Shown here: positions 25,696 to 33,663 of the stretch, in pieces
Layout: each line of letters opens with the position of its first letter
How positions within the stretch are numbered: position 1 is the stretch's first letter
Assembly (NCBI GenBank): GCA_012031225.1
Contig: JAAUTZ010000026.1
Coordinates: 1-39,957, forward strand
Source of the DNA: Chloroflexaceae bacterium
Lineage (GTDB): Bacteria; Chloroflexota; Chloroflexia; Chloroflexales; Chloroflexaceae
Direction: 5' to 3'
DNA: 39,957 bases
Translations under genes and position numbers: made by a program
Notes under the pieces: model-generated
Databases searched by the model: none
What the model was told of the DNA's origin: nothing
Seen by the model: the letters and a program-made list of their open reading frames with translations, nothing else

Positions 25696-26120
25696 ACGAC
25701 TTCGCCTTGATCTTGGGCGTGCGCCTGCAAATCCGCGAGACGGACGATCTGGAGCGCGGCGGCGTGCGTGGCTGCAAGGATCACCGGCGGTGCAACCCCC
25801 GCTTCGAGGGCTTCTTGCCAGCGTGCGGCACACACGCACCAGCGATCCCCCGGCCGCAAGCCGGGAAAGTTGTACTCTGGGCGCGGCGTGCTGAGATCGT
25901 TGCCGCGCTGCCGCGTGAATGCGAGAAACTCTGCCGTCACTTCCGCACAGATGACGTGTCGCCCGCGATCTTGGGGTCCCGTCTCGCAGCAGCCGTCGCG
26001 GTAAAAGCCGGTCATCGGTGCGGTGCCGCACACCTCAAGCGGCGTGCCAAGTACATTCGGTGCGGCGCGTTGCAGGTCGCTTGTGCCATTGCTCGTATTG
26101 CTGCCGTTGTTGCCTGCCAT
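25692..26120 (-). CDS. DUF2237 family protein
   Basis: The 142-residue protein matches the DUF2237 pattern: [72 protein letters not shown] and [16 protein letters not shown]. Several conserved cysteines (VCG, GCC, WCVC) suggest metal or redox chemistry, but no function is established. A Gly/Asn/Ser-rich N-terminal tail (about 20 residues) is extra. The ATG at 26120 is backed by GAGGAG upstream. The stop shares CTAG with fabG. Confidence 0.88.
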
Positions 26121-26219
26121 TGTCTGCTCCTCGTCTCTGGTATTGCGATCCGTTCCGGTTTGCGAAAAAACCACGCGTGCGTATCATGAAAGTAATCCTG
26201 ATTCATACTGTAGCACAAA

Positions 26220-26234
26220 CCCCGCCGTGCGGGG
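26220..26234 (+). other. small GC-rich hairpin in the leader of the Ig-like gene
   Basis: CCCCGC-CGT-GCGGGG: six pairs with a three-base loop, 77 bases before the GTG at 26311. Possibly a leader structure; no function assigned. A weak CATACT at 26204-26209 could be the -10. Confidence 0.35.
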
Positions 26235-26310
26235 GGATGTGTCATTAAGTCAACCGTGCGCGTGGATAACACCGCAGCATACCGACAACCCAACGGATGG
26301 AGATAACCCC

Positions 26311-27552
26311 GTGAGATCTACCGACCCATATTGCCCCCTGCAACGCCGCCGGTGGCAGCTGCGCTATCCGCTGGCTTTTGCCGCCGTGGTTGGGCTGCTG
26401 CTCTGGATGATTGCAGTCGGGCAAGCCCAAAGCCCAAGCCGAGTATATCTGCCGCTTGTGATCCGCACCGCCCCCCCAGTGCAGCTTGATCTGAGCAGTG
26501 CTGACCCGCGCCTGCCCGCCAACGGGGTCAGCACGACGGCGATCTCGGTGACAGTGCGGGATGGCTACAACCAGCCGCGAGTAGGCATTCCCGTGCGCCT
26601 GTCCACCACCCGCGGCCTATTCGCCAACCAAGATACCACACTGGAGCAGCATAGCGATGCAACCGGCACAGTTAGCACGACGTTGCAGGCGAGTCTCGAA
26701 ATTACCCCCGATGCTGCGTTTGTCACCGCGCACGTCGAATTTGAGGAGCAGGTCTTTAGCGAGCAGACACGAGTGCAACTGCTTGTGCCAGAGCGTGTCA
26801 CCATCACCGGTCTGCCAGTTGAGCTACCCGCCGATGTGCGCCGCCAAAGCCTGCTGGTGGTGCAAGTGCAAGATGCGAGCGGGGCCCCGATAGGGTCATA
26901 TCCGGTGGTGCTAAGTACCGTATTGGGGCGGTTTGCCACTGGCGAGAAATTTGCCGAAGCGACCACCAACGCCACTGGACGGGCAACGTTGCCCCTCTAT
27001 GCCACGCCCGATCTGGGCATGGCGCAGGTGCAGGCGCAAGCCGGGCAGACGCTCGGTACAGGGGCGATACAGTTGGTGCTGGCACAGTGCAATGACTTTG
27101 AGGATAACGATGTGCCCAACCAAGCCAACGAGCAGCCGTCTGCGTATTGTCTCGGCAGCTTCGAGGATGATGAGATCATTGATCCCAATGAGGGCGAGGA
27201 TGACTACTACTTGATCTACCTCGATCCTAATCAGGCGGTGCAGGTCAATCTCGGGGCGATCCCCGCCGAAGCCGATTACGACCTGATCCTCTACAACAGC
27301 CGCCTTCAAATCGTGGAGTTTTCGAATCAGGCGGGGCAAACGCCAGAGCAACTGAAACACACCCACACTGCCGCCGAGCGAGAATTCTATTACTTGCGCG
27401 TAAATATGTACCGCAAATCGAGCACTGCCGAAAACCTCTATCACTTGCGCGTTGCCTTGAACCCGCTTGAACAGCCCGGTAGCGTGATCCAGCGCAGCAT
27501 TGATGTGAATGCGCTGTCGGCTGACGATCCCGCCTTGCCGCCGAAGGAATGA
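26311..27552 (+). CDS. secreted surface protein with two Ig-like domains and a PPC-like domain; N-terminal LPLV motif
   Basis: The 413-residue product starts at GTG 26311, with GGATGGAG (26295-26302) upstream. A signal peptide (about 1-40, YPLAFAAVVGLLLWMIAVGQ, ending AQ) is followed at once by SRVYLPLVIR (43-52). Then come two invasin/Big_1-like repeats (about 56-160 and 165-265; ISVTVRDGYNQPRVGIPVRL and VVQVQDASGAPIGSYPVVL). A PPC-like domain (about 270-400) contains CNDFEDNDVPNQA and EDDYYLIYL, as in bacterial prepeptidase C-terminal folds. A surface or adhesin role is likely. It is first in a row of five secreted or secretion-linked genes. The longer ATG at 26023 is rejected because it overlaps the divergent DUF2237 gene. 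Confidence 0.75.
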   Translation: MRSTDPYCPLQRRRWQLRYPLAFAAVVGLLLWMIAVGQAQSPSRVYLPLVIRTAPPVQLDLSSADPRLPANGVSTTAISVTVRDGYNQPRVGIPVRLSTTRGLFANQDTTLEQHSDATGTVSTTLQASLEITPDAAFVTAHVEFEEQVFSEQTRVQLLVPERVTITGLPVELPADVRRQSLLVVQVQDASGAPIGSYPVVLSTVLGRFATGEKFAEATTNATGRATLPLYATPDLGMAQVQAQAGQTLGTGAIQLVLAQCNDFEDNDVPNQANEQPSAYCLGSFEDDEIIDPNEGEDDYYLIYLDPNQAVQVNLGAIPAEADYDLILYNSRLQIVEFSNQAGQTPEQLKHTHTAAEREFYYLRVNMYRKSSTAENLYHLRVALNPLEQPGSVIQRSIDVNALSADDPALPPKE

Positions 27553-27730: not shown

Positions 27731-27750
27731 TCGTGACGAAAGAACAGAGT

Positions 27751-27987
27751 ATGTCCAACTTACGCATAGCCTATACACCACCCGCCATCTTGTACGAAGG
27801 ACGCTTGCAAACCAATGCGGGCACGCCCGGCAGTATCATCATTGATGATGAGGTTGACCCAGAATTGCCAGATAAGCCAGTTGGTGAGCCAAGTGGCGGG
27901 GGCGATCCGCCGCGCCCGCCCAAGCCTGCCCCCGATCCGGGTAGTGGCGGTGGTGGGGGAGACCCACCGCGTCCGCCCAAGCCGTAG
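27751..27987 (+). CDS. 78-residue RiPP/lasso-leader-like precursor peptide with Pro-rich repeats
   Basis: No signal peptide. The N-terminus IAYTPPAILYEGRLQTNAGT has the Y-x-x-P-x-I-x-x-x-G pattern (Y8, P11, I13, G17) known from leaders recognised by RRE/PqqD-type domains, as in lasso peptides. T25-P26-G27 would be a plausible cleavage point: a Thr two before and a Gly first in the core, with D33 and E34 at core positions 7 and 8, where lasso rings close. The rest is acidic and then Pro/Gly-rich, with GGDPPRPPKP twice (50-59, 69-78). No lasso maturase, protease or ABC exporter is nearby, and a core of 52 residues would be unusually long. The stop is nine bases before the C25 gene. Possibly a substrate of, or partner for, that peptidase. 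Function unproven. Confidence 0.6.
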   Translation: MSNLRIAYTPPAILYEGRLQTNAGTPGSIIIDDEVDPELPDKPVGEPSGGGDPPRPPKPAPDPGSGGGGGDPPRPPKP

Positions 27988-27996
27988 GGCAATGCC

Positions 27997-30900
27997 ATGC
28001 AGTGCGCTGTACGGTACACAACCTATCGCCTGCACCGTTGGTGTGGGCTGGTGTTGGTTGTCTGGCTCCTGAGCGGTAGTTGGGTGGCATCGCCTGCGCT
28101 GGTGCAGGGGGCAACCGGGCCTGATCCGGCGGTCGTCCACCTCGTCCAGAGTGACGCATATGGCGCACACCTGCGCCTCAGCACGCCGCCCTTCGAGATC
28201 GGCACCCATGCCCGTGCGCCCGCGACCCAGCGCGAACGGCAGCAGATCGGGCTGGCTGGAGCCGCCCAAAGCGGCAGCATCGGCACACCCGCCTTGCCCA
28301 CCTTTGCGGTGCTACTGGCGGTGCCTGCCGATGCCACCCCCACCCTGAAGATCGCCACTGGCTCGCGCCACACCTACCCGGCTCCCGTCTGGCTTGCGCC
28401 TGTGCCTACGCCGCAGCCGGTGGCTGAGCCACTTCAGCCGGGCGTAGATGCGTACCTCCCCGATCCGCTCGCGTATGCTAGCTCCGCTCCGCTTCCGCCA
28501 ACACCGGCTCGCATCACCGCCGATCTGTGGCAGCGCGATCAGCGCATCGTGCGAATTGAGCTTACGCCCTTTGTGTATACCCCTGCAACCGGCAGCCTCG
28601 CGTGGTATCATCAGCTAGAGGTGCGGGTGGATTTCGGCCCCACTGGCGCACCACCCGCCACCTCGCCCACGCCCGATCCGTATGCGCCCGCGCTCGATCT
28701 GCTCAACGCGCAGCAGGCGCAGGCGTGGCGCACCCCCGCCCCCACCCTCGCCCAAGTTGCTGCACCTGATCCGACTCCGCGCTATCGCATCGAGATAACG
28801 GCGGATGGAGTCTATCAGATCACTGGCGCAGAACTCGCCGCGCTCGGCTTGAACCTCGCTAGCACCCGTCCGCCACAGCTGCACCTGACCTGCGGCGGAC
28901 AGCCTACCGCCCTGCTGATTGAGCGGGTGGCAGGCAGCCCCACCCAACAGCTGACCGCCCAAGATACGCTGCTCTTTTATGCCACGCAGTTTCGCGGCTC
29001 CGTGATGGAAGAGAAATACACCCAGACCAATGTCTGCTGGCTGGCAGTGCGCGATACCGACGGGATCCGGATAGCAACCCGCCCGGCCACGCCAGATGCC
29101 AACCTGCCCCTTCAGACCACCTTCTCCGAGACGGTGCGGGCGGAACGTTCGTTGACATGGTTCCCGGCGCACTTTACCAGCGAAGAGACGTGGTTCTGGC
29201 AACGGATCCAGACCGATGGCACAGAACCAGCCCGCCGCACCTACAGCATCGCCCTCCCTGATCCGGCGACCAGCCCCTATAGTGCAACCGTGCGCGGCGA
29301 ATTGGTAGCCCGCGCCTATGCCGCACGCGGCCAGCCCAACTATCACACTCGTGCCGAACTGAATGGCGCACTCGTGGCCGATGCCTTCTGGGGTAAAGGC
29401 GGAGCCGCCGATGTGTGGCAGTTTGCGGGCCCGCTGCCGCATACTGCTGTGCGCGATGGCAACAACCAGCTTGCGCTCACGATCTTCAATGATGCCGCCG
29501 TCACATTCAACGATATGCTCTTCGATTGGTTTGAGGTCAGCTACCTGCGCCGCCTGATCGCCCGCGACAATCAGCTTACCTTTCCGGCGGCTAGCACGGC
29601 GGCGAGCCAAATCCAGCTCGCGGGCTTCCTCAGCGATGAACTGCTGCTGCTCGACATCAGCGATCCGGCGGCTCCCGTCCTGCTCACCGATGCCCAGTTG
29701 GATACCGATGCCCAAGGCTTCCGCCTGACGTTCGCTACAGGCAACACCCCGCCCACGCAGCCCCCCGCCCGCTTCATTGCGCTGGCCCGCGCGGCCGTGC
29801 GTGCGCCTGCGGCCATCAGCCGCTACACCCCGCCCGATCTCGGCTCGGCACGCGGTGCAGACTACATCATCATCACCCACGCCGCCTTCCGCACGGCAGT
29901 GCAACGCCTCGCCGACTATCGGGCGGCGCAGGGCTTGCGCGTGGCGGTGGTAGAGATTGCCGATCTGTACAACCAATTCAACAATGGCATTGTGCATCCG
30001 CGTGCGATCCGTAGCTTCCTCGCCTACACCATGCAGGCGTGGCAACCACCCGCCCCCGCGATGGTGCTGCTAGTCGGCGATGGGCACTGGAATATGCTCA
30101 ACCACGCCCCCGCCACCTATGGCGGCGGCACGGTGTATATCCCGCCTTACCTCGCATGGGTAGATCCGTATCAGGGCGAAACGGACGCAACCAGCCGCCT
30201 CGCTATGCTGACTAATGACGTATTGCCGGATATGGCGATTGGGCGGCTGCCCGTCAACAGCGTGGCTGAACTCAACACGATCATTGACGCGACGCTCCAA
30301 TTTGAGCAGTTGGGCACCCTGCCGCCTGCCGAGCAGCCGCGCAACGTCGTGATGGTTGCCGATAACATCCCCGATCCGGCGGGCGATTTTGTCGCCCAGA
30401 GTGAGCAGATCATTGCGCGTTCCTTCACCGCCGATGTGCCCTATGCGCGGCTCTACCTGAATGACTTCTGCCCGCGTGGGGGCGCGTGCCCTGCCTTGAA
30501 TACCGCAATCACGGCCGCGATCAACAACCCGCAGACGTTGTTTCTGGGGTATAATGGACACGCCGCCATTGAACGTTGGGCGGCTGAAGGCATCTGGCAA
30601 GCACGCGATCTGGCAGGCCTCACCAATCAGAACCGCCGCCCGCTCATGATAGCGATGACCTGTCTGGAAGGCTATTGGCACTACCCGGCGCGGCCCGGCT
30701 TGTCCGAAAGTGCGTTGCGGCAGGCCCGCGGCGGGATTGTCGCCGCCTACACCCCGACCGGGCTAGGCGTGGCAACGGGGCACGATTGGCTGCAACACGG
30801 CTTCTTCACGGCGGTGTACAAGCAGCGTGTACCATCCTTGGGGGCGGCAGTGCATGCCAGCAAAGTGGCATTGTATCTGGCGGGGGTGCATGCCGATTTA

Positions 30901-31017
30901 CTGGATACGTTTGGGATTCTGGGCGATCCGGCGTTGCGCTTACCAACCGCCGCTGTGCTGCCGGAGCCGCCAGAGCCAATCCAACGGGTGTATCTGCCAC
31001 TGGTACGGGCTGAGTGA
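27997..31017 (+). CDS. PorU/gingipain-like C25 cysteine peptidase with LPLV tail
   Basis: The 1006-residue protein has a signal peptide (about 1-38), a prodomain-like region, then a PorU-like start RYRIEITADGVYQITGAELA (about 264-283) and the C25 domain from about 618. Key parts are ADYIIITHAAFRTAVQ, MVLLVGDGHWN, DMAIGRLPV, catalytic His855 in LGYNGHA and Cys889 in AMTCLEGYW. Their 34-residue spacing agrees with gingipains. Gingipains cleave after Arg or Lys; PorU acts as the sortase of the type IX system in Bacteroidota. No T9SS genes are here and Chloroflexota are not known for T9SS. The C-terminus is IQRVYLPLVRAE. It is nine bases after the small peptide gene and 38 bases before the Fn3-like gene. 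Probably secreted and active. Confidence 0.85.
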   Translation: MQCAVRYTTYRLHRWCGLVLVVWLLSGSWVASPALVQGATGPDPAVVHLVQSDAYGAHLRLSTPPFEIGTHARAPATQRERQQIGLAGAAQSGSIGTPALPTFAVLLAVPADATPTLKIATGSRHTYPAPVWLAPVPTPQPVAEPLQPGVDAYLPDPLAYASSAPLPPTPARITADLWQRDQRIVRIELTPFVYTPATGSLAWYHQLEVRVDFGPTGAPPATSPTPDPYAPALDLLNAQQAQAWRTPAPTLAQVAAPDPTPRYRIEITADGVYQITGAELAALGLNLASTRPPQLHLTCGGQPTALLIERVAGSPTQQLTAQDTLLFYATQFRGSVMEEKYTQTNVCWLAVRDTDGIRIATRPATPDANLPLQTTFSETVRAERSLTWFPAHFTSEETWFWQRIQTDGTEPARRTYSIALPDPATSPYSATVRGELVARAYAARGQPNYHTRAELNGALVADAFWGKGGAADVWQFAGPLPHTAVRDGNNQLALTIFNDAAVTFNDMLFDWFEVSYLRRLIARDNQLTFPAASTAASQIQLAGFLSDELLLLDISDPAAPVLLTDAQLDTDAQGFRLTFATGNTPPTQPPARFIALARAAVRAPAAISRYTPPDLGSARGADYIIITHAAFRTAVQRLADYRAAQGLRVAVVEIADLYNQFNNGIVHPRAIRSFLAYTMQAWQPPAPAMVLLVGDGHWNMLNHAPATYGGGTVYIPPYLAWVDPYQGETDATSRLAMLTNDVLPDMAIGRLPVNSVAELNTIIDATLQFEQLGTLPPAEQPRNVVMVADNIPDPAGDFVAQSEQIIARSFTADVPYARLYLNDFCPRGGACPALNTAITAAINNPQTLFLGYNGHAAIERWAAEGIWQARDLAGLTNQNRRPLMIAMTCLEGYWHYPARPGLSESALRQARGGIVAAYTPTGLGVATGHDWLQHGFFTAVYKQRVPSLGAAVHASKVALYLAGVHADLLDTFGILGDPALRLPTAAVLPEPPEPIQRVYLPLVRAE

Positions 31018-31055: not shown

Positions 31056-31505
31056 ATGATTGCAACAACCACAACATCGCCGCGTCGCAGGCTCGTGCTG
31101 TCGGCATTCGCGCTGTTCGCTGCTGCTGTGCTTGCGCTGCTCGTCAGCTTGTCGGTTGCCTATGCCAGCGTCACCTTCATCGGCTTTGCGGCAACCCGCA
31201 GCAGTACAGGGGTGCTGATAACGTGGTCTACCGCTACTGAGATCAAGACGGCCGGCTTTCGGGTGCTAGCAAGCACCGCTCCGAATGTGCCGCCTACTCC
31301 GCTCAGTAGGCTGATTCCGGCGCAGGGCGATAGCTTCATGGGCGCGGACTACAGCTTCACCGACCGCACCGGCACAGCCACGACGCGCTATTTCATCGAG
31401 GTGGTGATGCTCGACCAGAGCACCGAGTTAATCGGGCCCCTGCTCCCGCTCAGTGACGAGCCGGCCACGCGCCTTTTCCTGCCGCTCGTGGTAGTGGGGC
31501 GATAG
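31056..31505 (+). CDS. small secreted Fn3-like protein with LPLV tail
   Basis: The 149-residue product has a signal peptide (about 8-36, VLSAFALFAAAVLALLVSLS), then one Fn3-like domain (about 40-133) with the recurring TGVLITWSTATEIKTAGFRV, YSFTDRTGTATTRYFIEVVM pattern, known next to C25 peptidases in other bacteria. It ends ATRLFLPLVVVGR. The ATG at 31056 has GGGGAG (31041-31046) nine bases upstream; an earlier GTG at 31014 overlapping the C25 stop lacks this. Position suggests a non-catalytic partner or a substrate of the two flanking peptidases. Could also be a cell-surface binding module. Confidence 0.72.
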   Translation: MIATTTTSPRRRLVLSAFALFAAAVLALLVSLSVAYASVTFIGFAATRSSTGVLITWSTATEIKTAGFRVLASTAPNVPPTPLSRLIPAQGDSFMGADYSFTDRTGTATTRYFIEVVMLDQSTELIGPLLPLSDEPATRLFLPLVVVGR

Positions 31506-31515
31506 CACGGGCATT

Positions 31516-33663
31516 GTGCGGCAACGTTACGGGGAGCGGCAGCGTGCGTTCGCCGATCCCTACCTAGTGCCTACCTACGCGCTAGTCCTGTTGCTGGCTG
31601 CGGTGCTAGCGGCGTGTGCGGCTCCTGTCTCACCGCCTGCCGCGCCTGCGCCATCGCCGGTTGCGCTTCGCCTGCACACCAACCAAGCGGGCGTGCAACG
31701 GCTCAGTGCCGCCGAATTAGCCGCGCACGGCATGCCCGCCCCGCAGGATCCGGCGGCGCAGTGGCACTTGCACTGGCGCGGCAAGCCCCACCCGCTCCTG
31801 ATCGCGGCTGATGCGCTGTATTGGTATGTGCCTGCCCACGCCCTGCCCGATGCGATCTACCTGCTTGAAGCGCAACCACCACCCGTAATTGTCACGCTGC
31901 CGCCGCTTGCGCTGCCCGTGCCCGATCCGCGCCACACCCGCCCGCTGCCCACGCTGCCGCCGGATGCCGCCCATGCCACGGTTGAATATGCCCCCGCCGC
32001 CGTGTACGATTCGCTCGTGCCACTTGGGGTAGGCGATGCGTGGCTGGGGCAGCGCATGCTCGCGCCACACACCGAAGCAATCCCGCTAACATTGGCTGAG
32101 CCATTGCCCGCATCCGCCCAGCTTGCGCTAGGAGTGTGGGGCAATAGCAGGGCCCCGATCTCGCCCGCCCATCTCTTGCAAGTGCGCCTGAATGGGCAAG
32201 CACTCGGCACGCTGGCGTGGGATGGGCAAGCCTACTATACCGCCACGCTCGCCATTCCGGCAGGGGGGCTACGCGACGGCGTGAATCAACTGGAGCTAGA
32301 GCTACCCGCAGATCGCCCGCTCGATGTGCAGCAGCTTGATTGGCTCGTGCTCGATTATGCCCGCCCCCTGCGCCCCATCGCCGAACAGCTAACATGGTCT
32401 GCCTACCTTGCCCCGCAGCCCAGCGATGGCTGGCACTCGGCGCAGGTGCAGGTGTTTGCGCTAGAGCCTACCAGCGCGTTCCTCACCGCCACCGCCACCC
32501 TCACCCCGACGCAGGGGCGCATCACCCTGAGCAGCACCGCCGCGCCGCGCCATGTGGCGATTGGCAGCGATGGCTGGCAGCCGGTGCAGATCACCCCGAT
32601 CACCGCCGCCCAGCGCAGTATCGGCCCGCAAGCTGGAGCCGACTATCTCGTGATCGGTGCCGAGCCGCTCCTCGCCGAACTCACGCCCCTGCTTGATCTG
32701 CACCGCGCTCACGGCTTGCAGGTGCAGACCCTCACGACGGCGCAGGTCTTCAATCAGATTGCTTCCGGCACGCCCGATCCGGCGGCCGTGCGGGCCCTGC
32801 TGCAACACGCCGCCGCGACATGGCAACCACCGCCGCGCTACGTGCTGCTGGTCGGCGATGCCACCTACGATCCGGTGGGCTACACCGCCCCTCCGCCCGC
32901 TTTTGCCCTGCCGGGCGCAGACGTGTACACGCGCTACGGCGGGCGGACCATTAGCGACGTGCCGCTTGCCGATCTGAATGGGGATCGCCGCCCCGATCTG
33001 GCAATCGGGCGCATCCCCGCCACTACCCCGCAACAGGTGCAGGTGTGGCTCGCCAAGCTGCTCGCCCATGCCGCCCAGCCTGCCGCGCTGCAATCGGCGT
33101 TGCTGGTAGTGGATGGGCAAGAGCCGCGTTTCGAGCGGGATGCCCTGCTATTTGCCGCGCCTTTTGCCGCCACTCCCGCTGTGCCGCGTTTTGTTGTGGC
33201 TCGTTCGCCCGCCGATGCCACCACCGTGCAAGTAGACCTCAGCACCCAGCCCCAGCTTGTTGCCTACTTTGGGCACGGCAGCGTAACCCAGTGGGGGCAG
33301 GCGGGCTTGCTCACCACCGCCACCGCTGCCGCGCTCCCCGCTCCGCCCGCCCACCTAATGCTGCACTTCACCTGCCTAACCGGACTGTTCCACCACCCCC
33401 AACAGGAGACCCTCGCCGAAGTGTTGCTGTGGCATCCCGCTGGCGGCAGCCTTGCCCTGCTTGCCCCCACTAGCCTAACATTGCCTGATGATCAGGCGTG
33501 GCTGGCGGGCACCCTCGCTCGCACCCTGACAAGCGATCCAGAGGTGCGGGTTGGCGATGCGTTGCTCAGTGCGTGGCGGCAACTCTCGCCCCAACAGGCT
33601 GGTACACTTGAAGTGTTAGAGACCTTCGTCCTGCTCGGCGATCCAGCCATGCGGGTGTGGTAG
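31516..33663 (+). CDS. second C25 cysteine peptidase, predicted lipoprotein
   Basis: The 715-residue product begins at GTG 31516, with a hydrophobic segment and lipobox (LLLAAVLAAC, Cys about 34), so it is predicted to be lipid-anchored. A region with beta-sandwich-like pieces precedes the C25 domain (from about 375). That domain has ADYLVIGAEPLLAELTPL, YVLLVGDATYDPVGY and DLAIGRIPATTP, His587 in YFGHGSV and Cys620 in HFTCLTGLF. Their spacing, 33, matches the family. It ends LLGDPAMRVW and lacks the LPLV tail, unlike its secreted neighbours. An anchored C25 enzyme beside tailed proteins could be a processing enzyme (hypothesis). A GTG at 31567 is an alternative start. It follows the Fn3 gene by 10 bases. 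Confidence 0.78.
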   Translation: MRQRYGERQRAFADPYLVPTYALVLLLAAVLAACAAPVSPPAAPAPSPVALRLHTNQAGVQRLSAAELAAHGMPAPQDPAAQWHLHWRGKPHPLLIAADALYWYVPAHALPDAIYLLEAQPPPVIVTLPPLALPVPDPRHTRPLPTLPPDAAHATVEYAPAAVYDSLVPLGVGDAWLGQRMLAPHTEAIPLTLAEPLPASAQLALGVWGNSRAPISPAHLLQVRLNGQALGTLAWDGQAYYTATLAIPAGGLRDGVNQLELELPADRPLDVQQLDWLVLDYARPLRPIAEQLTWSAYLAPQPSDGWHSAQVQVFALEPTSAFLTATATLTPTQGRITLSSTAAPRHVAIGSDGWQPVQITPITAAQRSIGPQAGADYLVIGAEPLLAELTPLLDLHRAHGLQVQTLTTAQVFNQIASGTPDPAAVRALLQHAAATWQPPPRYVLLVGDATYDPVGYTAPPPAFALPGADVYTRYGGRTISDVPLADLNGDRRPDLAIGRIPATTPQQVQVWLAKLLAHAAQPAALQSALLVVDGQEPRFERDALLFAAPFAATPAVPRFVVARSPADATTVQVDLSTQPQLVAYFGHGSVTQWGQAGLLTTATAAALPAPPAHLMLHFTCLTGLFHHPQQETLAEVLLWHPAGGSLALLAPTSLTLPDDQAWLAGTLARTLTSDPEVRVGDALLSAWRQLSPQQAGTLEVLETFVLLGDPAMRVW

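Follow-up and report, generated by a model that had tools for sequence, protein, structure and literature searches.

A small gene of a Chloroflexaceae bacterium very likely encodes the raw peptide of a modified natural product, made through an undescribed gene set that occurs in several Chloroflexota lineages. The gene lies in a stretch of 39,957 nucleotides that was analysed at its full length (the window). We give a probability of about 0.72 to the reading that its 78-residue product is an RRE-guided, RiPP-like precursor that would be exported after probable phosphorylation and perhaps glycosylation, with a secreted C25 peptidase completing it outside the cell. Of the three options in the first-pass annotation of this DNA, that of a new RiPP class relying on a gingipain-like protease came closest and was essentially right. 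Such a system would link the RRE-guided maturation of peptides in Chloroflexota to C25 (gingipain/PorU), a protease family known chiefly for its part in virulence and type IX secretion, and would offer a testable substrate, outside lasso peptides, for two poorly understood accessory enzymes, the PF14907 nucleotidyltransferase (NTase) and the HprK-like kinase.

The peptide and its leader

The open reading frame (ORF) at 27751-27987 on the forward strand translates to MSNLRIAYTPPAILYEGRLQTNAGTPGSIIIDDEVDPELPDKPVGEPSGGGDPPRPPKPAPDPGSGGGGGDPPRPPKP. Y8, P11, I13, G17 and the T25-P26-G27 junction stand in the translation where they had been reported, the two GGDPPRPPKP copies were found at residues 50-59 and 69-78, and the spacing of nine bases (27988-27996) between the peptide stop codon and the ATG of the C25 gene was likewise confirmed. 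The features of the locus are:

27751-27987, forward strand: 78-residue RiPP-like precursor peptide (translation, homology, selection)
27751-27822, forward strand: leader, residues 1-24, with invariant R5, Y8, P11, I13, L19 and A23 (ungapped 21-column match, seven members)
27772-27789, forward strand: Y-x-x-P-x-I, predicted RRE-type recognition motif, residues 8-13 (family alignment; YxxPxL in lasso precursors)
27823-27825, forward strand: Thr25, the Ser/Thr kept at the leader/core junction and a proposed phospho-acceptor (T/T/T/S/S/S/S in seven members)
27856-27984, forward strand: Pro/Gly-rich tail, DPELPDKP plus two GGDPPRPPKP, three repeat-like units (family-specific core part)
27997-31017, forward strand: C25 (PorU/gingipain-like) peptidase 1, with N-terminal hydrophobic segment, propeptide, His855/Cys889 and C-terminal RVYLPLVRAE (domain models, alignment, tree)
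31056-31505, forward strand: secreted FN3-like protein with C-terminal RLFLPLVVVGR, start ambiguous (GTG 31014 or ATG 31056; relatives in G236, on contig C90 and in G011)
31516-33663, forward strand: divergent C25 peptidase 2, with the second C25 of the G236 cassette as its nearest match (domain, tree)

The same-genus homologue is 86% identical across residues 1-49, and the codon comparison gave 16 synonymous against 9 nonsynonymous changes (dN 0.056, dS 0.355), indicating purifying selection on the peptide frame. Judged from these alignments, the 78-residue ORF is real and conserved. Its start at ATG 27751 is not certain; an alternative in-frame GTG lies at 27733, and the ATG has no strong Shine-Dalgarno sequence. 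No Pfam or NCBIfam model matched the 78-mer. The Y..P.[ILVM] motif by itself is weak evidence, with 2.5 occurrences expected by chance in shuffled small ORFs of the window and 0.11 for the stricter Y..P.[ILVM]...G near the N-terminus. Taken singly the motif would not suffice, but chance was ruled out by homology, since the conservation of the leader (86% identity, dN/dS), the hits of a 25-column leader profile and the kept gene context lift it above that background.

The profile search recovered a few strong relatives within the class and more in the phylum; weak matches (G060, G003 and others) were rejected as chance, falling in other reading frames or in long ORFs. The seven best family members align over 21 ungapped columns with the consensus R-x-x-Y-x-x-P-x-I-x-x-x-x-x-L-x-x-x-A-[GS]-[ST], and identity among them is 53% in the leader against 26% in the core. 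The peptides thus have the short, conserved leader and variable core of a RiPP precursor, and the lack of such a split, which had been named beforehand as grounds for giving up the idea, was not what the alignment gave. G17, taken earlier as part of the leader signature, is not conserved in it. Many RREs, including the PqqD group, read W/Y/LxxP/L/I motifs (PMC12710340), YxxPxL is kept in those lasso precursors on which PqqD-type B1 proteins act (PMC10368454), and the B1 protein of paeninodin binds its own leader at about 5 nM (PMC5067487).

Past the A-[GS]-[ST] junction, the seven cores (16-54 residues) diverge. Within the window's family they have 53-54 residues with Pro/Gly repeats; outside it they have 16-21 residues without such repeats, one of them with two Cys, and the Pro/Gly tail was seen in the window's own family only. 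In an eighth relative, that of G016, YxxPxI and the DPELP repeats are retained but the junction is divergent, and three DPxxPxKP-like units are present likewise in the G011 and G016 peptides. Of the 43 residues in the window's tail, 16 are Pro and 10 are Gly; the tail is low-complexity and unlike a typical RiPP core, which counts against a RiPP.

Gene cassettes and their split in the window's genome

In G052, genes for a PF14907 NTase, an HprK-like kinase, the peptide, a C25 peptidase, an S24/S26-like peptidase (S26) and PqqD stand in a row. The order is identical in G040, where the kinase and NTase were confirmed. G265 has NTase, HprK, PqqD, radical SAM/SPASM, peptide, C25 and S26, and in G236, which belongs elsewhere in the phylum, the peptide, C25, S26, PqqD, an FN3-like gene and a second C25 stand behind two ABC half-transporters. 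PqqD therefore lies within the peptide's cassette at all four loci. A third family of the order carries PqqD, radical SAM, a Cys-containing peptide, HprK, S26 and C25 in seven genomes; its peptide can be linked to the others by context, as the leader resembles YxxPxI and the full alignment fails.

One locus of this third family (L091 2479-9448, G053, with equivalents in six other genomes) encodes radical SAM/SPASM, PqqD, HprK, S26 and C25, with an adjoining sortase, and its Cys-containing peptide is near-identical among the genomes (...DDVLAVCRT / EDVLAVCRTTSSATSGANCKITPCF[ST]). On a 9-kb contig of G087 (L102 3378-6649), PqqD, radical SAM, a Cys-containing peptide, HprK and S26 are consecutive, with no visible C25.

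Where a cassette includes a radical SAM/SPASM enzyme (G265, G087 and the seven one-family genomes), the cores have at least two Cys; where it does not (window, G001, G011, G016, G040, G052 and G236), they are Cys-free (p about 0.01). Because Cys come and go with the enzyme, the peptide cores track the enzymes, and no other indirect evidence speaks as strongly for the peptides being cassette substrates. With three lineages on one side and about six loci on the other, this match is suggestive.

In the window's genome, the same six kinds of gene occur as three adjacent pairs on three contigs: peptide and C25 in the window, S26 and PqqD on C8, and NTase and HprK on C90, followed by an FN3-like gene. 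The same-genus genome G001 shows the same split, and in G011 the NTase-HprK and S26-PqqD pairs are on separate contigs. An assembly break was rejected as the cause, because all three pairs lie well inside their contigs. The proposal that the precursor is matured elsewhere in the genome was essentially right, and the search for a PqqD/RRE protein that had been recommended found one on C8, beside S26. The separation of the machinery from the peptide in this genome does count against the RiPP reading, and no transporter gene stands beside the peptide at the locus. Since the second C25 of the window groups with that of G236 and their FN3-like proteins are relatives, the window locus can be read as the same cassette minus S26-PqqD. 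A cassette split across the genome in this lineage would be missed by cluster-based RiPP mining.

Across the order, PqqD, the HprK subfamily and NTase were each found in 6/6 peptide genomes, while PqqD occurs in 26/82 genomes overall and the HprK subfamily scores strongly in 7/82. The absence of any RRE-type protein from carrier genomes, which would have spoken against a leader, was thus not observed. Fisher tests over the 82 genomes, which ignore phylogeny, gave 7e-4 for peptide with PqqD, and about 2e-8 by genome and about 2e-5 by genus for peptide with HprK, the two HprK figures being flattered by a profile that was built from peptide-bearing genomes.

The NTase and HprK matches of G011 (L146 1017-2990, contig C255) are broken across frames, through sequencing errors or decay. 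G018, in which no peptide was detected, encodes a cassette-subfamily HprK (L143 9308-11560, contig C93) followed directly by a protein ending in RVHLPLIIRHE, a YLP-like tail; a leader-like ORF was sought near this HprK and none was found, and such a kinase in a genome with no peptide detected speaks against the RiPP reading.

The peptide gene adjoins a C25 gene in G001, G011, G040, G052, G236 and G265, and this adjacency, the short gap in the window and the Pro/Gly-rich tail would also suit a Pro-rich peptide with a role in secretion or as a linker, or else a peptide that chaperones or inhibits the C25 next to it, in either case with no more than a likeness to a RiPP leader. We consider this unlikely. 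Four relatives hold the peptide-C25 pair inside a PqqD cassette, the G016 peptide has no adjoining C25 (the only C25 found in that genome is an ordinary one), and the conserved part is the RRE-type leader and not the tail. The linker suggested in the first-pass annotation is disfavoured, though the tail is indeed confined to the window's family. The G016 peptide, with no cassette-type C25, also weighs against the RiPP reading; together with the PqqD, HprK and S26 genes of the short G087 contig, it indicates that C25 is not universal in these gene sets.

Enzymes and a proposed pathway

The HprK-like kinases share invariant H130, G145, G148, G150, K151, T152, D166 and D167 (A3 numbering), which matches the His, Walker-A G-x-x-G-x-G-K-[ST] and Asp-Asp signature; an H...G..GxGK[ST]...DD pattern was reported for lasso precursor kinases, one of which acts on core Ser3 with the aid of a PqqD-like B1 protein (PMC10368454). 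The family scores behind the HprK assignment are weak, which counts against the RiPP reading, and the AlphaFold2 prediction of the fold was poor (pLDDT 52). In pseudomycoidin, a nucleotidyltransferase adds hexoses to the phosphate (PMC8498205). The S26-like proteins keep Ser and His, lack a strong hydrophobic segment and have a model resembling LexA and SipA; the cassette peptidase is a LexA/SipW-like S24/S26 enzyme.

C25 peptidase 1 scored 232.6 bits against PF01364 (cut-off 23), which places it in the C25 family, and its His855 and Cys889 align with PorU (6za2) and gingipain R (4ief). Against the T9SS_sortase PorU equivalog it reached 221 bits, short of the cut-off of 420. The alignment gave no support for Arg-specific cleavage, as by our reading the gingipain S1 Asp has no aligned Asp in the window protein. 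In the C25 tree, peptidase 1 groups with the C25s of G001, G011, G040, G052 and G236 (support 100/100), a split with 100/99 support sets fifteen ordinary C25s of the order apart, and peptidase 2 groups with the second C25 of G236 (100/100). All cassette C25s lie on one side of a branch whose support, 85/75, is not firm.

Under the RiPP reading, the RxxYxxPxI leader would dock on the stand-alone PqqD-type RRE encoded on the other contig, which would pass the peptide on to the HprK-like kinase and the PF14907 NTase. These enzymes would add a phosphate, and possibly sugar, to a hydroxyl residue, likeliest the junction Ser/Thr (T25). The S24/S26-type Ser-His peptidase encoded beside PqqD, with no evident membrane segment, could trim the leader in the cell; alternatively, the C25 might remove it. 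The product would be exported and then met outside by the co-encoded, secreted and propeptide-bearing C25, which would cleave it one last time or link it to the surface.

RVYLPLVRAE at the end of C25 peptidase 1 (30985-31014; YLP-box score below cut-off) and RLFLPLVVVGR at the end of the FN3-like protein (31470-31502) resemble the putative YLP-box sorting motif NF050076 of NCBIfam. Upstream, a Big_1/Invasin_D3 surface protein (26023-27552) has a YLP-box match of 15.1 bits against a cut-off of 15, which adjoins its N-terminal hydrophobic segment and not its C-terminus. In G011, too, a protein resembling this one comes before the peptide.

The last step could also take another form, in which a PorU-like C25 ligates the phospho- or glycopeptide to surface polymers or YLP-type proteins, making it a building block for surface anchoring and not a free product. 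The match of these C25s to PorU/PorU2 models, the YLP-like C-termini of peptidase 1 and the FN3-like protein, the position of FN3-like genes beside C25 (window, G011, G236) and beside HprK (G000, G001, G011) and the sortase next to one radical-SAM-type cassette are consistent with it. However, the model matches fall below cut-off, the YLP-like tails score weakly, and the cassette is missing from most of the order's genomes that have a C25; we judge the proposal improbable. A fuller version is distinctly unlikely: a Chloroflexota RiPP class in which RRE, kinase and NTase would build a phospho-glycosylated peptide, to be cut at A-[GS]-[ST] and transferred to a surface acceptor by the secreted PorU-like C25. 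If true, this would be a PorU-type transpeptidase acting on a RiPP.

Comparison with known systems

That the peptide is a lasso precursor, cut after T25-P26 by a PqqD-like B1 and B2 pair and closed into a G27-D33/E34 ring by an asparagine-synthetase-like cyclase, is highly improbable, as its three defining features were tested and none was borne out, despite the YxxPxI spacing and T-P-G junction of the 78-mer and PqqD scores against lasso B1 models that stay below cut-offs. The transglutaminase-like B2 (PF13471), which the first-pass annotation had advised looking for, is missing from the window's own genome and from five of the six peptide genomes of the order in all (G000, G001, G011, G016 and G040), and that of G052 sits on another contig with PqqD, an Asn_synthase match and a lasso-type precursor. 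No asparagine-synthetase-like cyclase was found in or beside the cassettes read, and G040 is without any Asn_synthase match genome-wide. The cores do not consistently combine Gly/Ala/Ser/Cys at residue 1 with Asp/Glu at 7-9: Gly1 and the acidic residues occur partly, in the window's family only. D33 and E34 do fall at positions 7-8 if the core starts at G27, as had been remarked, but they are unconserved in relatives, and the Thr belongs to A-[GS]-[ST] and is not a lasso (-2) Thr. Separate lasso-type precursors (YxxPxLxxxG...LTxG) beside PqqD were seen at other loci of the class (L087, L090, L093, L094, L095 and L096).

The literature searched, in which most subscription journals are missing, contained no paper joining RiPP with C25 or gingipain and precursor or leader peptide. 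The RiPP-like system proposed here comes near the phosphorylated or glycosylated lasso peptides paeninodin, pseudomycoidin and BsfA, with which it shares the YxxPx[IL] leader, a discrete PqqD-type B1/RRE, an HprK-like kinase with the H-G-G-GK-DD motif and a nucleotidyltransferase (PMC8498205, PMC10368454, PMC5067487). Unlike them, it has no B2 transglutaminase-like peptidase, cyclase or lasso ring residues, and it carries C25 and S24/S26-type peptidases instead. HprK-like and PqqD-like proteins, with radical SAM/SPASM in some relatives, are also shared with the SynChlorMet (Scm) and HprK-related A/B systems (NCBIfam TIGR04248-04251, TIGR04352, TIGR04355). The partial matches to ScmC, ScmD, ScmE, HprK_rel_A and HprK_rel_B all fall far below curated cut-offs (best bits: ScmD 42.5 of 100, ScmC 30 of 125, HprK_rel_B 29.7 of 200), and the cassette counts as related to those families and not as a member; in contrast to Scm, it has C25, S24/S26 and NTase genes, and the window form lacks radical SAM at the loci read. 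With PorU and the gingipains, the window C25 shares full-length Peptidase_C25 and Propeptide_C25 domains and the aligned catalytic His and Cys, but it scores below the PorU equivalog cut-off and is genetically tied to an RRE cassette. Finally, the gene sets of G265, G087 and the seven one-family genomes share PqqD, radical SAM/SPASM and Cys cores with radical SAM RiPPs of the sactipeptide/ranthipeptide type, whereas the window version has no cassette radical SAM gene and a peptide without Cys.
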